Positions 9,009 to 47,507 of a DNA stretch of 64,000 nucleotides are shown piece by piece. The notes under the pieces were generated by a model. That model had not been told where the DNA came from. It saw nothing but the letters and a program-made list of their open reading frames with translations, and searched no databases. The DNA is taken from the NCBI RefSeq assembly GCF_900128895.1, contig NZ_FSQW01000001.1, forward strand, positions 992,001-1,056,000. The letters run 5' to 3'. A program made the translations under genes and the position numbers. The stretch comes from Parasphingorhabdus marina DSM 22363. GTDB lineage: Bacteria > Pseudomonadota > Alphaproteobacteria > Sphingomonadales > Sphingomonadaceae. Within the stretch, counting starts at the first letter, position 1, and each line of letters opens with the position of its first letter.

Positions 9009-9878
9009 ATGAAACCGATCAAAAAAGCCGTGTTCCCTGTTGCCGGTATGGGAACGCGGTTCCTGCCCGCGACCAAGGTGATGCCGAAGGAACTGTTCCC
9101 GGTCGTCGACCGGCCCTTGCTGCAATATGCGGTCGATGAAGCGCTTGAAGCCGGGATCGAACAGATGATTTTCGTCAATGGCCGCGGCAAGGGCATGATC
9201 GAGGATCATTTCGACATGGCGTTCGAATTGCAGCGCAACATGGGCGACCGCGGCAAGGATCAGTCGATCCTCGACGGCACGCGCCTGAAACCGGGCAATG
9301 CGGTCTTTGTCCGACAGCAGGAACCGCTGGGACTGGGCCATGCCATCTGGTGCGCGCGGGACATTATTGGGGATGAACCCTTTGCCATTTTCCTGCCCGA
9401 CGAATTCATGGTCGGTGAACCGGGCTGCATGAAGCAGATGGTGGATGCCTATGAATCGCTTGGCGGCAATGTTGTTTGTGCGCTGGAGATCCCGATGGAA
9501 GACACGTCGTCCTATGGCGTGATTGACCCTGGCAAGCAGGAAGGCCCGATCACCGAAGTGAAGGGGCTGGTCGAGAAACCGGCGGCGGGCACGGCGCCGT
9601 CCAATCTGATCCTGCCGGGTCGTTATATATTGCAACCGGAAGTTATGCGTATTCTGGAAACGCAGGAAGCCGGTGCGGGGGGCGAGATCCAGCTCACCGA
9701 TGCCATGGCGCAAATGATCGGGCAGCAACCCTTTCACGGCATGACTTTCGACGGCAAGCGCTATGACTGCGGGTCAAAGCAGGGCTATGTCGAAGCCAAT
9801 CTGGCGCTGGCGCTCGCGCATCCGGAAATTGGCGAAGATATCCGCAAGATTGCCGGGGATCTGCTCGCGGGGTCCTGA
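9009..9878 (+). CDS. galU: UTP-glucose-1-phosphate uridylyltransferase
   Basis: Forms UDP-glucose from UTP and glucose-1-phosphate for envelope and exopolysaccharide synthesis. The nucleotide-binding signature GMGTRFLPATKVMPKE is at residues ~14-29, and VEKPAAGTAPSNL and the AGAGGEIQLTDAM segment are typical of GalU. The 289-residue length is normal. The gene lies 10 bp after msrA at the end of the efflux run, a placement that suggests co-transcription but not a shared function. Confidence 0.95.
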   Translation: MKPIKKAVFPVAGMGTRFLPATKVMPKELFPVVDRPLLQYAVDEALEAGIEQMIFVNGRGKGMIEDHFDMAFELQRNMGDRGKDQSILDGTRLKPGNAVFVRQQEPLGLGHAIWCARDIIGDEPFAIFLPDEFMVGEPGCMKQMVDAYESLGGNVVCALEIPMEDTSSYGVIDPGKQEGPITEVKGLVEKPAAGTAPSNLILPGRYILQPEVMRILETQEAGAGGEIQLTDAMAQMIGQQPFHGMTFDGKRYDCGSKQGYVEANLALALAHPEIGEDIRKIAGDLLAGS

Positions 9879-41265: not shown

Positions 41266-42924
41266 CTAGACTGTATCAATCAGCACGACATCCTGTGTCG
41301 GCTTTTCGCAGAACAGCATCGGGCTTTGATAGCGATCGGTCAGATCTTCCACTTCTCTGCGAATATAATTGGCAAACTGCTCCACTGTCAGTCCGGGCTG
41401 GCCGAGCGCGTTGGTGAGGGCGATGGCAAAGGGGCTGCGTTGCTGACCGGGTGCGGCATCCATGGCAAATTGATAATAGCTCGCGGCAAACAGGACCGAA
41501 CATTGCGGATAGTTGCCGGGACCTTCGCCTTGCCCCAAGGCCCGTATGTTATCGAGTACGCCCGTGATCCTGTTGCTCAGGACATCCGGTGACAATCCGA
41601 AGCGGGTCTGCCATCCGGACTGGAGCTGGGCATCTTCGAGGCAAAAGTCGCAAAGCAGGTGCACATTCTTCATGTCAAAAGCATCGAGAATTTCGCCCAT
41701 CGCTACCATGGTGAGATCATCATTTCTTTTGCTCTGCTTGAGATTGATCGCCAGCCCGCGCGTGCCGGCTTCCCCTTTTTTCTGGCTGGCCGCGGCCGAA
41801 CTGCCTTGCAGAAACAGCCATGCTCCGCGATCAATCAGTCCGCCCATTCCGGCGAGATAGACAAAATTGCGCTCATGGCCACGGCTGGCCATTTCCTTGC
41901 AGGAAGCCAGCAACTCCCCGCGCGACGGATCGAGCAGGGTGGTGACATTCGCCCCCAGTTCCTCAAAGTCGGCCGTCAGCCTTTGGGCATCGGAATGCGG
42001 CGTCGCCAGACTCACAAGGCTGGAAAACTCGTCATATTTCTCGATCCCGACAACCAGAACACCGGTATCCGCCAGCCCCGCTTTCCGGTTTTGCCTCTTG
42101 CGACGGGCCGGTGCCTTTTTGGCATCCAGCCGGACGTCGCGCCCCGCCTGATCATAGATGGCCGGGCATTGATTGCGGCCAATGGATTGCGCGTCGGCGA
42201 GCACCGCTTCGCGGGTGGATTTGATGACATCGTCAATCAGCACATCTGGCGCCATCTGGTCGATCAGGTGCCGGACGAACAATCCATTGGGATGCTTGTC
42301 CTCATCACCGAGATGATCAATGGCATATTGCCCGGCACCGGCGGAGTAGGTGACATAGAAGCCGCCCGGTGCGTTGGTGGATGCGAATCCGTTGGCGCGA
42401 CCATTGAGCTGGATCTCCAGCGGCTCGTCACGGCAGGCATCGAGGATGACAATCGCCTGTCGCGGTCTGGTGCTGGCGATCTGATCCAGCAGATAGCCGG
42501 TCTGTACGGACGACTCCAACAGGGCATCACCGTCTTTCGCGACATCGGCAGGCAGGATGAAGTTGGTTCCAGCTGACTGGATGCCATGGGCTGCCATATA
42601 GATGAAGACAGCGCTATTCGGTTCCAGGTTTGAATAGAATGTGTCGAAACTGCGGAACAATCCGTCGGCATCGACATTTTCCGCCAGCTGCACCTGATAG
42701 CCGAAGGATTCGACCTTCGCGGCTATCGACCGGGCATCGGCGACGGCGCGTTCCAGCGGACGGATGTGCTGATATTTGTCCACGCCAACGACAAAGGCTG
42801 CCAGTTTGGTTGCGGCGGGGCTGGCAAGGAGCCCGGAATGGGCCCATCCGCCGGCGAGGCCGGTGACGGCCGCACCGGAAATAAAATTCCGACGGTCAAT
42901 CGGGAATGGCGGCACGAGCGACAT
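41266..42924 (-). CDS. Tat-exported caspase-family protein with tandem active and pseudo-caspase domains
   Basis: 552 residues. The N-terminus DRRNFISGAAVTGLAGG is a twin-arginine-type signal, so export in folded form is likely. Domain 1 (about 40-250) is a C14-type caspase fold with the dyad His113 (YMAAHGIQ) and Cys164 (ILDACRDEP). Domain 2 (about 288-545) repeats the fold (GVLVVGIEKYDEF) but has Met360 where the histidine should be (YLAGMGGLID) and a misplaced-looking Cys428 (LCDFCLED). Bacterial orthocaspases cleave after Arg/Lys; the target here is unknown. It starts 3 bp after the PhyH stop. Confidence 0.85.
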   Translation of the reverse strand: MSLVPPFPIDRRNFISGAAVTGLAGGWAHSGLLASPAATKLAAFVVGVDKYQHIRPLERAVADARSIAAKVESFGYQVQLAENVDADGLFRSFDTFYSNLEPNSAVFIYMAAHGIQSAGTNFILPADVAKDGDALLESSVQTGYLLDQIASTRPRQAIVILDACRDEPLEIQLNGRANGFASTNAPGGFYVTYSAGAGQYAIDHLGDEDKHPNGLFVRHLIDQMAPDVLIDDVIKSTREAVLADAQSIGRNQCPAIYDQAGRDVRLDAKKAPARRKRQNRKAGLADTGVLVVGIEKYDEFSSLVSLATPHSDAQRLTADFEELGANVTTLLDPSRGELLASCKEMASRGHERNFVYLAGMGGLIDRGAWLFLQGSSAAASQKKGEAGTRGLAINLKQSKRNDDLTMVAMGEILDAFDMKNVHLLCDFCLEDAQLQSGWQTRFGLSPDVLSNRITGVLDNIRALGQGEGPGNYPQCSVLFAASYYQFAMDAAPGQQRSPFAIALTNALGQPGLTVEQFANYIRREVEDLTDRYQSPMLFCEKPTQDVVLIDTV

Positions 42925-43806: not shown

Positions 43807-43853
43807 TGGTTTCTCTCCGTGATTCGGTTCTTGGCAGAATTTTTATCTGCAAA

Positions 43854-43873
43854 TTGAATTGAATTCAATTCAA
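43854..43873. promoter_or_regulatory. Perfect 20-bp palindrome, candidate TetR operator
   Basis: TTGAATTGAATTCAATTCAA is identical to its reverse complement. It lies between the divergent PhyH and TetR genes, about 50 bp from each start codon. Its size and position are those of a TetR dimer operator. Confidence 0.75.
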
Positions 43874-43926
43874 AAAATGGATAGAAGCTGAAACAGGCTG
43901 AAATACTGATTTCTGGAGGACGGAAA

Positions 43927-44544
43927 GTGAGTGAGAGGACGCGGAACCCTCAGGGCAAGCCGGGGCGTTCGGACAAAAAGGTTATTCGCGCCGCCAGGAT
44001 CATTGCCGCGGCCGAACGGATATTGATTACAGGCAAGGGCGAACTGGAAATGGGGCAGGTGGCCGAAAAGGCCGGCGTTTCTGTCGGGCTGGCCTATCAT
44101 TATTTTGGATCCAAGTCGGGCATGCTGGGTGCGATCATCGATGCCTTTTACGATCGCTACAACCATGTGGTGAACCAGTATCTGGATCCCGATATCCAGT
44201 GGGCGGTCCGCGAGAAGCAACGGCTGCACGCGGCGGTCAACTTTCTCTACAACGACCCGATGGCCCCGATCATTCTTGGCCGGATGGCTGGCTCAAACCA
44301 GGTCGCTGCGATAGAGGCCGCGCGCCAGGAAGAAATGATCGAAATGGCCATCCGCAACATCAAATCGGGCATCCGGCGACAGCATATCGGTGCCCATATC
44401 GACCCGCAAATCGCCGGCGCCGCGATTGTCGGCGCGATGCGTCAAAGCCTGATGCATGCCATGAAAATGGAACCGCGGCCATCTGCCAAGGTACTGACGC
44501 ATCAGATCTGGGGGCTGATCGCCGGAGCGCTGGATTTGCGGTGA
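43927..44544 (+). CDS. TetR-family regulator divergent from PhyH-caspase
   Basis: 205 residues; the DNA-binding domain is near the N-terminus (MGQVAEKAGVSVGLAYHYFGSKSGML, about residues 41-65 in pieces) and the rest is a helical ligand domain. The start is GTG 43927, seven bases after GGAGG. The ligand is not deducible; acyl-CoA-sensing regulators commonly sit beside lipid oxygenases. It most likely represses the PhyH-caspase-NTF2 unit and itself through the palindrome at 43854-43873. Confidence 0.92.
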   Translation: MSERTRNPQGKPGRSDKKVIRAARIIAAAERILITGKGELEMGQVAEKAGVSVGLAYHYFGSKSGMLGAIIDAFYDRYNHVVNQYLDPDIQWAVREKQRLHAAVNFLYNDPMAPIILGRMAGSNQVAAIEAARQEEMIEMAIRNIKSGIRRQHIGAHIDPQIAGAAIVGAMRQSLMHAMKMEPRPSAKVLTHQIWGLIAGALDLR

Positions 44545-44726: not shown

Positions 44727-44745
44727 TATATGCGCCACGCACATT
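44727..44745. promoter_or_regulatory. Islet palindrome, site A
   Basis: TATATGCG-CCA-CGCACATT: core TATGC-N5-GCACA, one base off the consensus TATGC-N5-GCATA. It is centred 31 bp (three helical turns) upstream of site B, before the SnoaL-GNAT genes. Confidence 0.6.
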
Positions 44746-44757
44746 TTTGGATTGCTA

Positions 44758-44776
44758 TATATGCGTCGCGCATATA
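44758..44776. promoter_or_regulatory. Islet palindrome, site B
   Basis: TATATGCG-TCG-CGCATATA is a perfect 8-3-8 dyad, 38 bp before the SnoaL-like start codon. A TATAAG sequence (44773-44778) that could serve as -10 box overlaps its right arm, so a bound repressor would block the promoter. Confidence 0.72.
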
Positions 44777-44814
44777 AGTTGTTGCAGTACTCAACGACTG
44801 CCACGGAGAGCAAT

Positions 44815-45213
44815 ATGACCGACACAAACCTCACCCCTGAACAGCAAGATTTCTATGAGCGTTTCAAATCGTTCTGGACCAAACCTTCTGGCGCCCGAGT
44901 GCCCGAAGTGATTGCGCCTGACGCGAAAATTCATTTCACTGGCGCAGGAATAATGTCCGGTACCACCTATGCAGAATGGATGACCGAGACATTGGCCACG
45001 ATGGAGGACATGACGGTGACTCCGCTCGACTGCGCCGGGAATGGAGAGATGTTATACATTGCTTGGGAAACGTCAGCCATGATCCATGGGGAGCGACGTA
45101 CCTATCGGGGCGTAGATCGTTTCCGCCTTAAAGATGGAATGGCGATAGAAGAGCATGTGATTTTCGATTCAGCAGTGCTCACACCCGAGGGGCGAGGCGG
45201 TATTGAGCAGTGA
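44815..45213 (+). CDS. SnoaL-like (NTF2-fold) protein
   Basis: 132 residues. FYERFKSFWTKPSGARVPEVIAPDAKIHFTG and the FRLKDGMAIEEHVIFD end are typical of SnoaL-like polyketide cyclase / NTF2-fold proteins with unassigned small-molecule roles. GGAGAG before ATG 44815 sets the start; the upstream open frame to 44557 crosses two operator-like palindromes and is not coding. It is first in a pair with the GNAT gene and lies in a stretch visibly richer in A+T than its surroundings. Confidence 0.82.
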   Translation: MTDTNLTPEQQDFYERFKSFWTKPSGARVPEVIAPDAKIHFTGAGIMSGTTYAEWMTETLATMEDMTVTPLDCAGNGEMLYIAWETSAMIHGERRTYRGVDRFRLKDGMAIEEHVIFDSAVLTPEGRGGIEQ

Positions 45214-45237
45214 CTATCAACCGATTGACACCATCTC

Positions 45238-45804
45238 GTGACCGACTTTAACACCAAACCGCTCAACGAAACCACTTGGCTGGATTTCGCGCGACTTGTC
45301 GAAGCGAACAACGGCGTCTGGGGTGGGTGCTGGTGTATGTGGTATCACGGAAAGGGTGCAAGTGCAGACGATGCAGCTGAAAAGCGCAAGGCGAAGGAAT
45401 GTCTTGTTCGCCAAGGCCGAGCGCATGCCGCGCTTGTATATGAAAGCGGGGATTGCGTGGGGTGGTGTCAATTTGGATCGCCAAATGAGCTCCCGCGAAT
45501 CCACAACCAGCGTGCCTATCAAAAGACCGATCCGGTATTACCCGACTGGCGGATCACCTGTTTTTTCTCTGGTAAGGGACATCGCGGAAACGGCGTTGCT
45601 TCGGTAGCGCTGGAAGGTGCAATCGAAGAAATTCGAAAGCTTGGCGGTGGAATTATCGAGGCTTATCCGGAGGATATTGAGGGTAGGAAGGCATCGTCAG
45701 CCTTTCTCTTTAATGGTGCTTTGCATATGTTTGAGCGACAAGGTTTCGAAAGATCACGGCAGATTGGAAAGCATAAATGGGTGGTGGTAAAAACCATCAC
45801 ATGA
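45238..45804 (+). CDS. GNAT-family N-acetyltransferase
   Basis: 188 residues with the acetyl-CoA-binding motif HRGNGVASVALEGAIEEI (about 118-136) and a C-terminal FERQGFE. The N-terminal VWGGCWCMWYHG segment is typical of a GNAT subgroup with unknown substrates. The start is GTG 45238, 24 bp after the SnoaL-like stop; no good ribosome site is visible, so coupling to the upstream gene is possible. Convergent with the alkyltransferase gene. Confidence 0.88.
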   Translation: MTDFNTKPLNETTWLDFARLVEANNGVWGGCWCMWYHGKGASADDAAEKRKAKECLVRQGRAHAALVYESGDCVGWCQFGSPNELPRIHNQRAYQKTDPVLPDWRITCFFSGKGHRGNGVASVALEGAIEEIRKLGGGIIEAYPEDIEGRKASSAFLFNGALHMFERQGFERSRQIGKHKWVVVKTIT

Positions 45805-45821
45805 TCAACAGCATTTGAAAA

Positions 45822-46397
45822 TCAATCCTGCGGCTTAGTCGCGAGTGGAAGATCATCAAACAAAGATGGCGGATCGGCAATTTGCGCCCCTTCAATTGAG
45901 AGCATCTTGAGTTTGGTTTCAATTCCGCCGGGTGCTGAAAAACCTATAAGTTTGCCGTTTGCGCCAACTACGCGGTGGCAAGGAATGATAATTGGGAATG
46001 GGTTACGTCCCAGGGCCTGACCAACCCTTTGTGCGTATAGTTTGTCGCCAAGCTGCAAGGCAACATCGCCGTAAGTAAGCGTCTCGCCAACCGGAACTGT
46101 CCGAGTGACGGAGTAGACCTCCATTGAGAATGGATCGATTCCATGAAAGTCGCAGGTGATAAATGATAAGTCTGCTTTTTCACCTTCGAGCAGCGCAGAC
46201 ATTGCTTGAATGGCGAGCTCTATAGCGGCTATCGGCTGGCCCTTTTTCGCTCCTGTTCGCTCAAATAGGCGCGCTTCTGTCGCAACGGGCGTCTTCTCCG
46301 GCAAAACGGTGGCAACGACCGTATCGCCACGCCATGCGATGCCGCAGTCGCCGACCGCCGTCGGGAAAAGAGTAAACTGCACTGTTTCCAAGACCAT
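45822..46397 (-). CDS. ogt: Methylated-DNA-[protein]-cysteine S-methyltransferase
   Basis: 191-residue suicide repair protein that takes the alkyl group from O6-alkylguanine onto its cysteine. The active-site motif IPCHRVVGANGKLIGFSAPGG contains the acceptor Cys, and the helix-turn-helix YAQRVGQALGRNPFP precedes it. The N-terminal domain is the degenerate RNase-H-like fold usual for Ogt. ATG 46397 is chosen over a TTG one codon upstream. No Ada-type activator is present. It lies within the AT-richer islet. Confidence 0.92.
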   Translation of the reverse strand: MVLETVQFTLFPTAVGDCGIAWRGDTVVATVLPEKTPVATEARLFERTGAKKGQPIAAIELAIQAMSALLEGEKADLSFITCDFHGIDPFSMEVYSVTRTVPVGETLTYGDVALQLGDKLYAQRVGQALGRNPFPIIIPCHRVVGANGKLIGFSAPGGIETKLKMLSIEGAQIADPPSLFDDLPLATKPQD

Positions 46398-46575
46398 CAA
46401 TCCTCAAGAATGATATTAAAGTCTACAGCAGTTGTCTGGTCAATAAGTACGAATGCGCCCCTATATTGTATTTCCTGCGCGGCGTCATGCATTGTTGTGA
46501 TCACGCAGGTGTAGCAAGAAGTTGCGAGGCTGATGCGCTTAGCGCCAGCATTGGCAAGGTTGGTTTAAGAACGGC

Positions 46576-46896
46576 TCACCGGGCCTTGTCGTTGCATTTT
46601 GCGAGTTTGTCAGCATCGAATGAAGCATCGCGAAAGCTAAACTTTTCGAGTTTACCGACTTCACGAACCAATCGCACGCAAACATGACGAGCGGAACTGT
46701 GAGATTTTTTTGCAAGGCATTCACCATTGGTGCAACGCCAGACAGTTTCCCTCGCAATTATGGTATCACTGATTGGTTCCATTGCTGTCGCTCGATAATC
46801 CGGTGTCTTATCTTTCGCGTGAGCCGATACTGCACTTATCGCGCCCAAGCCAATAATGGCAGTTATCAGGAAGGTACGATTCCATTCGTGGGTCAT
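46576..46896 (-). CDS. CC_3452-type small secreted protein
   Basis: 106 residues: a signal peptide (cleavage near SAHA-KD), then DTIIARETVWRCTNGECLAKKS, VCVRLVREVGKLEKFSF and DADKLAKCN with four cysteines. The pattern matches the CC_3452 family known in Caulobacter and sphingomonads, whose function is unknown. AGAGGAATTGTC precedes ATG 46896. A good promoter lies 45-75 bp upstream and carries palindrome site C inside its spacer, so it is probably controlled together with the divergent MarR gene. Confidence 0.83.
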   Translation of the reverse strand: MTHEWNRTFLITAIIGLGAISAVSAHAKDKTPDYRATAMEPISDTIIARETVWRCTNGECLAKKSHSSARHVCVRLVREVGKLEKFSFRDASFDADKLAKCNDKAR

Positions 46897-46938
46897 GACA
46901 ATTCCTCTTGCAAGAGTTGCAGTTTCGATAGCCAAAAT

Positions 46939-46969
46939 ATTATATGCATAACGCATACATATACGTCAA
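46939..46969 (-). promoter_or_regulatory. Putative sigma-70 promoter of the CC_3452-type gene
   Basis: On the minus strand TTGACG (46969-46964), a 19-bp spacer and a perfect TATAAT (46944-46939). Palindrome site C (46941-46959) overlaps the -10 box and most of the spacer. Confidence 0.6.
46941..46959. promoter_or_regulatory. Islet palindrome, site C
   Basis: TATATGCA-TAA-CGCATACA holds the exact core TATGC-N5-GCATA. It overlaps the minus-strand promoter of the CC_3452-type gene and is 45 bp from site D. Confidence 0.72.
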
Positions 46970-46985
46970 TCCGATAATTGCCTTT

Positions 46986-47004
46986 TCTATGCTCAGCGCA
47001 TACA
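46986..47004. promoter_or_regulatory. Islet palindrome, site D
   Basis: TCTATGCT-CAG-CGCATACA holds the exact core TATGC-N5-GCATA and ends 8 bp before the MarR start codon at 47013, a position suited to autorepression. Confidence 0.7.
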
Positions 47005-47012
47005 TTGCTGAC

Positions 47013-47507
47013 ATGGATCGAACCACAAACCTACTTGGCGCTCTTGCTTTGGCGCTTACCGACAAAATGGGCGCTGAGCTGAAAGACATTTTTGATCGCT
47101 CCGGCGAGACCGCGGCAGCAGTTATTGTTATCGGATATGTTCCCGGAATATCCGTTCAGATTCTTCGTCAGGTTCTTGATTTGTCACACCCAGGTACCGT
47201 GCGTGTGGCTGATCGGTTGGAAGAGGATGGTCTTGTCGAAAGACGCAGTGGCTTAGATGGTCGAACCGTTGCACTGCATCTCACGCGAAAAGGAACCATC
47301 ATGCGTAAGAAGCTTATGATGCGCCGCCTTGATATGCTGGAAGCTGCACTTGAGGGGATCACGACCAATGAACGGGGGGTTCTTGCTGATTTGATTGCGA
47401 AGGTTCTGACAAATTTACCAGAAACCGAAATGGGAAAGCACCGCATTTGTCGATTCTGCAACGTTCAAACTTGCAGCGATTGCCCAATTCGGGGCCACGC
47501 CATTTGA
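47013..47507 (+). CDS. MarR-family regulator with C-terminal four-cysteine cluster
   Basis: 164 residues with a MarR winged helix: LRQVLDLSHPGTVRVADRLEEDGLVERRSGLDGR covers recognition helix and wing in pieces (about 51-84). The C-terminus is Cys-rich: C146-R-F-C149 and C154-S-D-C157, spacing CxxC-x4-CxxC, suggesting metal binding or redox sensing. ATG 47013 is chosen; ATG 46989 would place operator-like site D inside the gene. No clear ribosome site is seen. It is the probable binder of the four TATGC-N5-GCATA palindromes of the islet. Confidence 0.87.
   Translation: MDRTTNLLGALALALTDKMGAELKDIFDRSGETAAAVIVIGYVPGISVQILRQVLDLSHPGTVRVADRLEEDGLVERRSGLDGRTVALHLTRKGTIMRKKLMMRRLDMLEAALEGITTNERGVLADLIAKVLTNLPETEMGKHRICRFCNVQTCSDCPIRGHAI

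Follow-up and report, generated by a model that had tools for sequence, protein, structure and literature searches.

Within the 64,000-nucleotide stretch of the Parasphingorhabdus marina DSM 22363 genome analyzed here (the window), a compact islet carries a MarR-family regulator gene, a SnoaL-like and a GNAT acetyltransferase-like gene (SnoaL-GNAT), a CC_3452 family gene and an ogt-like gene, together with four palindromic sites, A to D. Judging from their sequence and conservation, these palindromes are very probably the operators of the neighboring MarR protein, the C-terminus of which bears four cysteines (the Cys4 tail). MarR proteins with this tail are referred to as tail-MarRs, and loci and genomes are given by L and G numbers.

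Putative operator A, 44727-44745: TATATGCGCCACGCACATT; one of the 10 fixed bases mismatched; hybrid 19-mer TATATGC / GCACATT.
Putative operator B, 44758-44776: TATATGCGTCGCGCATATA; perfect 19-mer, 38 bp from the SnoaL ATG.
Putative operator C, 46941-46959: TATATGCATAACGCATACA; overlaps a leftward promoter-like stretch (TTGACG ... CATATAAT).
Putative operator D, 46986-47004: TCTATGCTCAGCGCATACA; preceded by TTGCCT and 8 bp from the MarR ATG (47013).
SnoaL-like gene, 44815..45213, plus strand: Pfam PF12680, 40.4 bits (cutoff 27).
GNAT acetyltransferase-like gene, 45238..45804, plus strand: GTG start; Pfam PF00583, 22.0 bits (cutoff 20.7).
ogt-like O6-methylguanine-DNA methyltransferase gene, 45822..46400, minus strand: TIGR00589, 76.7 bits (cutoff 46.4); start at TTG 46400 or ATG 46397.
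CC_3452 family gene, 46576..46896, minus strand: NF047636, 87.7 bits (cutoff 40).
MarR-family regulator gene, 47013..47507, plus strand: 164 aa; Pfam PF12802, 34.8 bits (cutoff 27).

An earlier note made from the sequence of the window had described four copies of a TATGC-N5-GCATA palindrome, perfect in the core at B, C and D and with one mismatch at A. Their coordinates confirmed this description, as well as the start-to-start spacing of 31 bp between A and B and the distance of D from the MarR start; C and D are 45 bp apart, and C is 44 bp from the CC_3452 ATG (46896, minus strand). The motif itself proved to be real and rare, but is a truncated form of the operator: comparison of relatives gave a 19-bp palindrome, TATRTGC-N5-GCAYATA, which contains the shorter core. 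Its half-sites take two forms: TATATGC is found in several paralogues and in the genus of the window, TATGTGC at divergent SnoaL loci in other genera. Against this 19-mer, B has no mismatch, A and C have one each and D has two. Read in this way, site A is a hybrid of the two half-site forms, not a damaged site. L006, L007 and L008 keep both A and B, the 15-mer core differing by no more than one base.

To what extent such a recurrence could arise by chance depends on the scale considered. In the 3,547,928 bases of the genome only five exact TATGC-N5-GCATA 15-mers were found, three of them in the 2.3 kb of the islet, and the density of the other two, both of which fall within predicted reading frames (638 and 373 aa), gives a chance of about 4e-10 for at least three in the islet. 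Within the window, four matches with at most one mismatch were found; shuffled sequences averaged 0.98 and reached four in 3 of 100 cases. The chance test is thus modest within the window alone and strong genome-wide, and the earlier statement that the repeats are very unlikely by chance holds on the latter scale; the genome search, moreover, found the motif rare, when its being common would have spoken against a regulatory role. For the 19-mer with at most two mismatches, 20 places were found in the genome versus five for a reversed control, and four of the 20 are sites A to D. Beyond these, a single place (L063) has one mismatch. Eleven of the 16 other places with one or two mismatches were inspected (L063-L072, L074): eight are within a reading frame as defined by a simple caller, and three (L063, L065 and L067) are between frames.

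Across 397 genomes of the family, 23 exact 19-mers were found in 20 genomes, versus two for the reversed control. Seventeen of the 23 are within 4.4 kb of a tail-MarR gene, 12 of these within 60 bp, and six (G206, G375, G385, G276, G110 and G112) have no tail-MarR nearby; the regions of five of these were fetched, that of G110 through its search locus L091 only. Two of these six were observed near oxidoreductase-like frames, namely L080 of G375 (Pfam FMO-like and Pyr_redox) and L092 of G112 (judged by eye), and a tblastn search with the window MarR gave no match in the fetched regions of either locus.

In relatives, the operator mostly accompanies the tail-MarR gene, just upstream of it. The best match over 14 positions was scored in the 130 bp upstream of each MarR gene, and 34 of 38 tail-MarR upstream regions matched at 12 or more of the 14 positions, a score reached by 73 of 18,267 windows drawn at random from these loci and by none of the 27 MarR genes without the tail, all of which scored 10 or below. 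In the window itself, the score is 13 for C and 12 for D. The 38 genes fall into about ten rough, mutually related groups and contain close kin such as L055/L056 and L044/L045; the count excludes L040 and L041 (whose DNA is that of L006 and L008), L156-L160 (fetched later), L058 (start uncertain; 13/14 upstream of 5184) and a tail-less third MarR of L052. Among plasmid loci fetched afterwards, the best score was 13/14 for L161, L163, L169, L170 and L172 (L163 and L172 being nearly identical DNA), 12/14 for L164, L165 and L171, in the last farther upstream, and 10/14 for L166, while the plasmid MarR genes of L167 and L168, which are beside insertion elements, scored 8 at best. In L162 both tail-MarR genes have a 13/14 operator. 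The earlier note would have been contradicted by an absence of the sites beside orthologues of this MarR; they were found beside both orthologues and paralogues.

A link between protein and site is further suggested by covariation. For MarRs whose predicted recognition helix has LS[HQ], 108 of 118 half-sites carry C at base 7, versus 2 of 16 for five MarRs with [LI]TH, so that a Ser/Thr change in this helix goes with a change of operator base (Fisher p 6e-11, uncorrected for kinship and only indicative). Some of the misses among the Ser-type proteins (L125, L126, L054 5841 and L162 5551) arise where the site finder slipped in register. The count includes L053 of group F and excludes L128, the helix of which does not fit the pattern, as well as L137, group J, L171, L167, L168 and L172. 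The covariation would still tie the window MarR to the TATRTGC-N5-GCAYATA site.

The position of the sites is consistent with repression. With distal operators oriented to the divergent gene, a TTG was found 7-10 bp before the operator at 19 of 25 sites, comprising all 19 of groups A and B and none of the six others, and 17 of the 19 read TTGAC; in the window, the stretch before C reads TTGACG and that before D TTGCCT. Because the TTG stands at this distance, the operator is predicted to cover the spacer and the −10 region, and a place behind a −35-like TTG would be the usual one for repression.

The window MarR has cysteines only at positions 146, 149, 154 and 157, all in the C-terminal tail. 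The tail pattern CR[LFM]C-x4-C-x2-CP is present in 23 of 23 aligned relatives, where C146, R147, C149, C154, C157 and P158 are invariant, and the tail was found in 25 proteins of a set of 26, with L052_9526 as the exception. No NCBIfam equivalog scored above its cutoff for this protein. Its best PDB sequence match is 1s3j (YusO), and among the PDB matches listed (60 of 116) all end at or before profile position 144, short of the tail. In a search of 289 genomes of the class at 1e-12, the scores dropped from 153 to 65 bits, a clear gap; a search of 349 genomes of the phylum at 1e-25 matched seven, and since four tail-bearing members scored 94-141 bits, the group has outlying members. These proteins are accordingly delimited here, by the tail, as a putative subfamily of Cys4-tail MarRs, to which the window MarR would belong by both its tail and its upstream operator. 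In the distant tail-MarRs of L158, L159, L160 and L133-L135, the third and fourth cysteines are spaced farther apart.

In the closer kin, the gene divergent from the MarR gene usually encodes a SnoaL-like, DUF3237 or VOC protein. Outside the genus the arrangement is simpler: the divergent gene is a SnoaL orthologue in L009, L043-L048, L051, L123 and L127, whereas in L049, L050, L124-L126 and L128 it is a DUF3237 gene, a VOC gene or a different SnoaL-like gene; L042, of the genus, has DUF3237 in the divergent position. GNAT follows SnoaL in L009 and L044. In the window and L006-L008, SnoaL-GNAT stands apart from the MarR gene and has its own site pair A and B, an arrangement read as SnoaL-GNAT having moved together with its operators. 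A SnoaL orthologue was found in 10 of 27 genomes, each time within about 4.5 kb of a tail-MarR gene, a link that is supportive only, as the 27 were partly chosen for having the MarR. Among 10 genomes of the genus, the four with the tail-MarR have GNAT and the six without it lack both SnoaL and GNAT (1e-10).

On the leftward side, ogt is on the same strand as CC_3452 in the window and in L006-L008, and on that of DUF3237 in L042. L007 and L008 have the gene series CC_3452, MFS, phosphoenolpyruvate (PEP) mutase family and ogt (the MFS and PEP mutase genes family-searched in L007 only), in which ogt overlaps the preceding same-strand gene by 4 bp with a TTG start, or by 1 bp with the ATG, a start present in L007. 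Because of this overlap, one transcript from C that includes ogt can be proposed, with ogt as its probable last gene rather than a bystander. A weak promoter-like match precedes ogt at 46438-46410 in a sigma-70 scan, so a promoter of its own is possible. The MarR-controlled unit of SnoaL, GNAT and CC_3452 genes with ogt inside it, as predicted in the earlier note, stays the best reading of the sequence, with the place of ogt refined to the probable end of the leftward transcript.

The distant paralogues provide a different context. Of eight loci (L052-L059), the tail-MarRs of which are 33-38% identical to that of the window as far as they are in the 23-row alignment, six have a DUF417/RclC-like match and five an MsrA match; the set also includes genes for GAPDH, an OsmC fusion, sulphur transport and CMD, operators precede the OsmC-hydrolase fusion gene as well, and KatG is near L049. 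Similar neighborhoods were found on plasmid records of Sphingomonas paucimobilis, Methylobacterium, Sinorhizobium and Citrobacter. The Citrobacter freundii plasmid locus L161 has tail and operator, with genes for DUF417, MarR, MsrA, an alpha/beta hydrolase and MsrB; it is the one inspected among the Enterobacterales plasmid records with tail-MarR relatives, which numbered 158 and 164 in two listings (by genus, Citrobacter 55, Klebsiella 36 and Enterobacter 27 or 28). As a separate observation, the same DUF417 protein (WP_010339850.1) and recombinase (WP_010339849.1) adjoin the tail-MarR in L163, L168 and L172, and plasmids with these two proteins belong to Methylorubrum, Sphingobium and Sphingomonas; the sharing across plasmids of three genera suggests that DUF417, recombinase and tail-MarR form a mobile unit. 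DUF417 proteins are reported to be tied to defence against hypochlorous acid (HOCl) in E. coli (PMC9600549), and the MarR-type SydR of Sinorhizobium is reported to be released from DNA by sodium hypochlorite (NaOCl) via a different cysteine (PMC11633110). It is because of these DUF417 neighbors and of the SydR release that the Cys4 tail is proposed as a sensor of oxidants or electrophiles.

From the sites, their promoter position, their conservation beside the MarR subfamily and the conserved tail, we infer DNA binding, repression, a signal, a redox mechanism and the co-transcription of ogt. A MarR dimer would bind the four 19-bp palindromes and repress its own promoter at D, leftward CC_3452(-ogt) at C and rightward SnoaL-GNAT at A and B, by covering the −35/−10 spacer and the −10 region. 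The tail would probably hold zinc or a dithiol pair and act as the sensor; modification of its thiols by an oxidant or electrophile would free the dimer from the DNA and induce the islet. That the window MarR binds these sites and represses is a part we hold with high confidence, and most likely the islet is autoregulated as a local unit, probably one that responds to stress. For the whole statement, an autoregulated repressor of SnoaL-GNAT and CC_3452(-ogt) with the tail as its sensor, we estimate a probability of roughly 0.55. A wider proposal is put forward tentatively, at somewhat below even odds: the window MarR may be one of an undescribed thiol-sensor class, in which the CxxC-x4-CxxC tail, as a zinc-thiolate or dithiol switch, reads hypochlorite or electrophiles, with one operator code used across Alphaproteobacteria and carried by plasmid-borne copies into Enterobacterales, and here wired to SnoaL-GNAT and CC_3452-ogt, through which electrophile stress would be tied to alkylation repair.

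Several observations weigh against the autoregulated thiol sensor in one or another of its parts. The four of the 38 genes that score below 12 are those of group J (L133-L135), which has the tail but no TATRTGC-N5-GCAYATA operator, and L137, which scores 9, with its site overlapping the start; the more distant L158-L160 gave no match at 11/14 or more in 3.5 kb. Conversely, the third L052 MarR (9089-9619) lacks the tail yet has a 13/14 operator 29 bp upstream, so tail and operator are not inseparable; as a neighbor of two clustered tail-MarR genes, it may be one whose tail was lost. In actinobacterial L171, LTH is combined with C at base 7, contrary to the covariation. At the operator sites the sigma-70 scan gave no promoter (two in the region versus a shuffle mean of 3.8), and the promoter claims therefore rest on the conserved flanks in relatives. 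An AlphaFold2 monomer built from five sequences was a poor model (mean predicted local distance difference test score 46), of little use for the tail geometry or for the expected dimer with the MarR fold. We know of no oxidant role for SnoaL, GNAT or CC_3452. Finally, tblastn at 1e-6 found neither DUF417 nor MsrA in any of L006-L009, L040-L051 and L123-L137, so that the case for an oxidant signal depends on the cysteines and on paralogues with 33-41% identity.

This last result would suit the alternative that the MarR represses the islet through A to D as proposed, with a small organic ligand, for example an aromatic one, as the signal in the usual pocket and the tail as a structural metal site only. 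Many MarR regulators respond to aromatic ligands, and the SnoaL-like, DUF3237, VOC and hydrolase neighbors in the closer kin, where DUF417 and MsrA were not found, would suit a catabolic or detoxifying role. Set against it are the four cysteines kept in all 23 aligned members and the DUF417, MsrA, KatG and CMD genes beside distant paralogues, and we regard a ligand signal as quite possible though doubtful.

That the sites belong to another regulator, such as the TetR-type protein encoded at 43927-44544, with the MarR as a bystander, has in its favor the short distance of about 180 bp from the end of the TetR gene to site A. The TetR operator was rejected as a candidate for A to D, however, since the TetR/PhyH intergenic region has a perfect 20-bp palindrome of its own, TTGAATTGAATTCAATTCAA at 43854; moreover, the window TetR had no tblastn match (1e-5, 1e-6) in the regions fetched around MarR genes of relatives, and the operator goes with the tail-MarR, leaving this assignment very unlikely. 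A chance or functionless dispersed repeat, which the few shuffles reaching four matches could favor, was likewise rejected, on the genome-wide rarity and the location of the other two 15-mers inside reading frames; with the conservation at matching positions in relatives and the result for MarRs without the tail also opposed to it, its probability is negligible.

The autoregulated Cys4-tail repressor, if correct, would make a palindrome that had no label into the operator code, open to testing, of regulators not named by the family models searched, with a specific prediction of operator, promoter and sensor cysteines. It would give candidate functions to SnoaL-like, DUF3237, GNAT and CC_3452 proteins. 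As members of the group adjoin chlorine-defence genes, including on an Enterobacterales plasmid, the signal would tell when those genes switch on.

Two further features were observed in the window. TTGAATTGAATTCAATTCAA lies between the divergent PhyH and TetR genes (43807-43926) and is likely the operator of the neighboring TetR regulator; a caspase-domain protein gene is at 41266-42924 on the minus strand (Pfam Peptidase_C14, 115.8 bits).

No description of the Cys4-tail MarR subfamily, its operator or the islet gene set was found among the papers listed in the literature searches, a weak absence given that these covered few subscription journals. The kind of system is known, namely a MarR repressor with a palindromic operator. 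Like MarR, SlyA and YusO (PF12802), the window MarR matches the family above the cutoff and has palindromic operators by its gene; the family trait of a palindromic operator of roughly 16-20 bp by its own start is apparent at C and D and in the relatives. Among the PDB matches listed, no MarR family structure reaches its Cys4 tail. RclR is an AraC-type and RcrR a TetR-type regulator, and neither is a MarR protein. In E. coli, RcrR/RcrB and RclR/RclC are each reported to comprise a regulator of a DUF417 membrane protein in HOCl defence (PMC9600549). Like the RclC systems, some tail-MarR paralogues adjoin RclC-like DUF417 genes, whereas the window islet has no DUF417 gene. OhrR, SydR, HypS and QorR are MarR-type repressors inactivated by oxidation, as proposed for the window MarR. 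OhrR and SydR are reported to use a redox cysteine in the N-terminal helix 1, a residue that the window MarR lacks, and HypS and QorR use a single cysteine, whereas the cysteines of the window MarR are C-terminal only.

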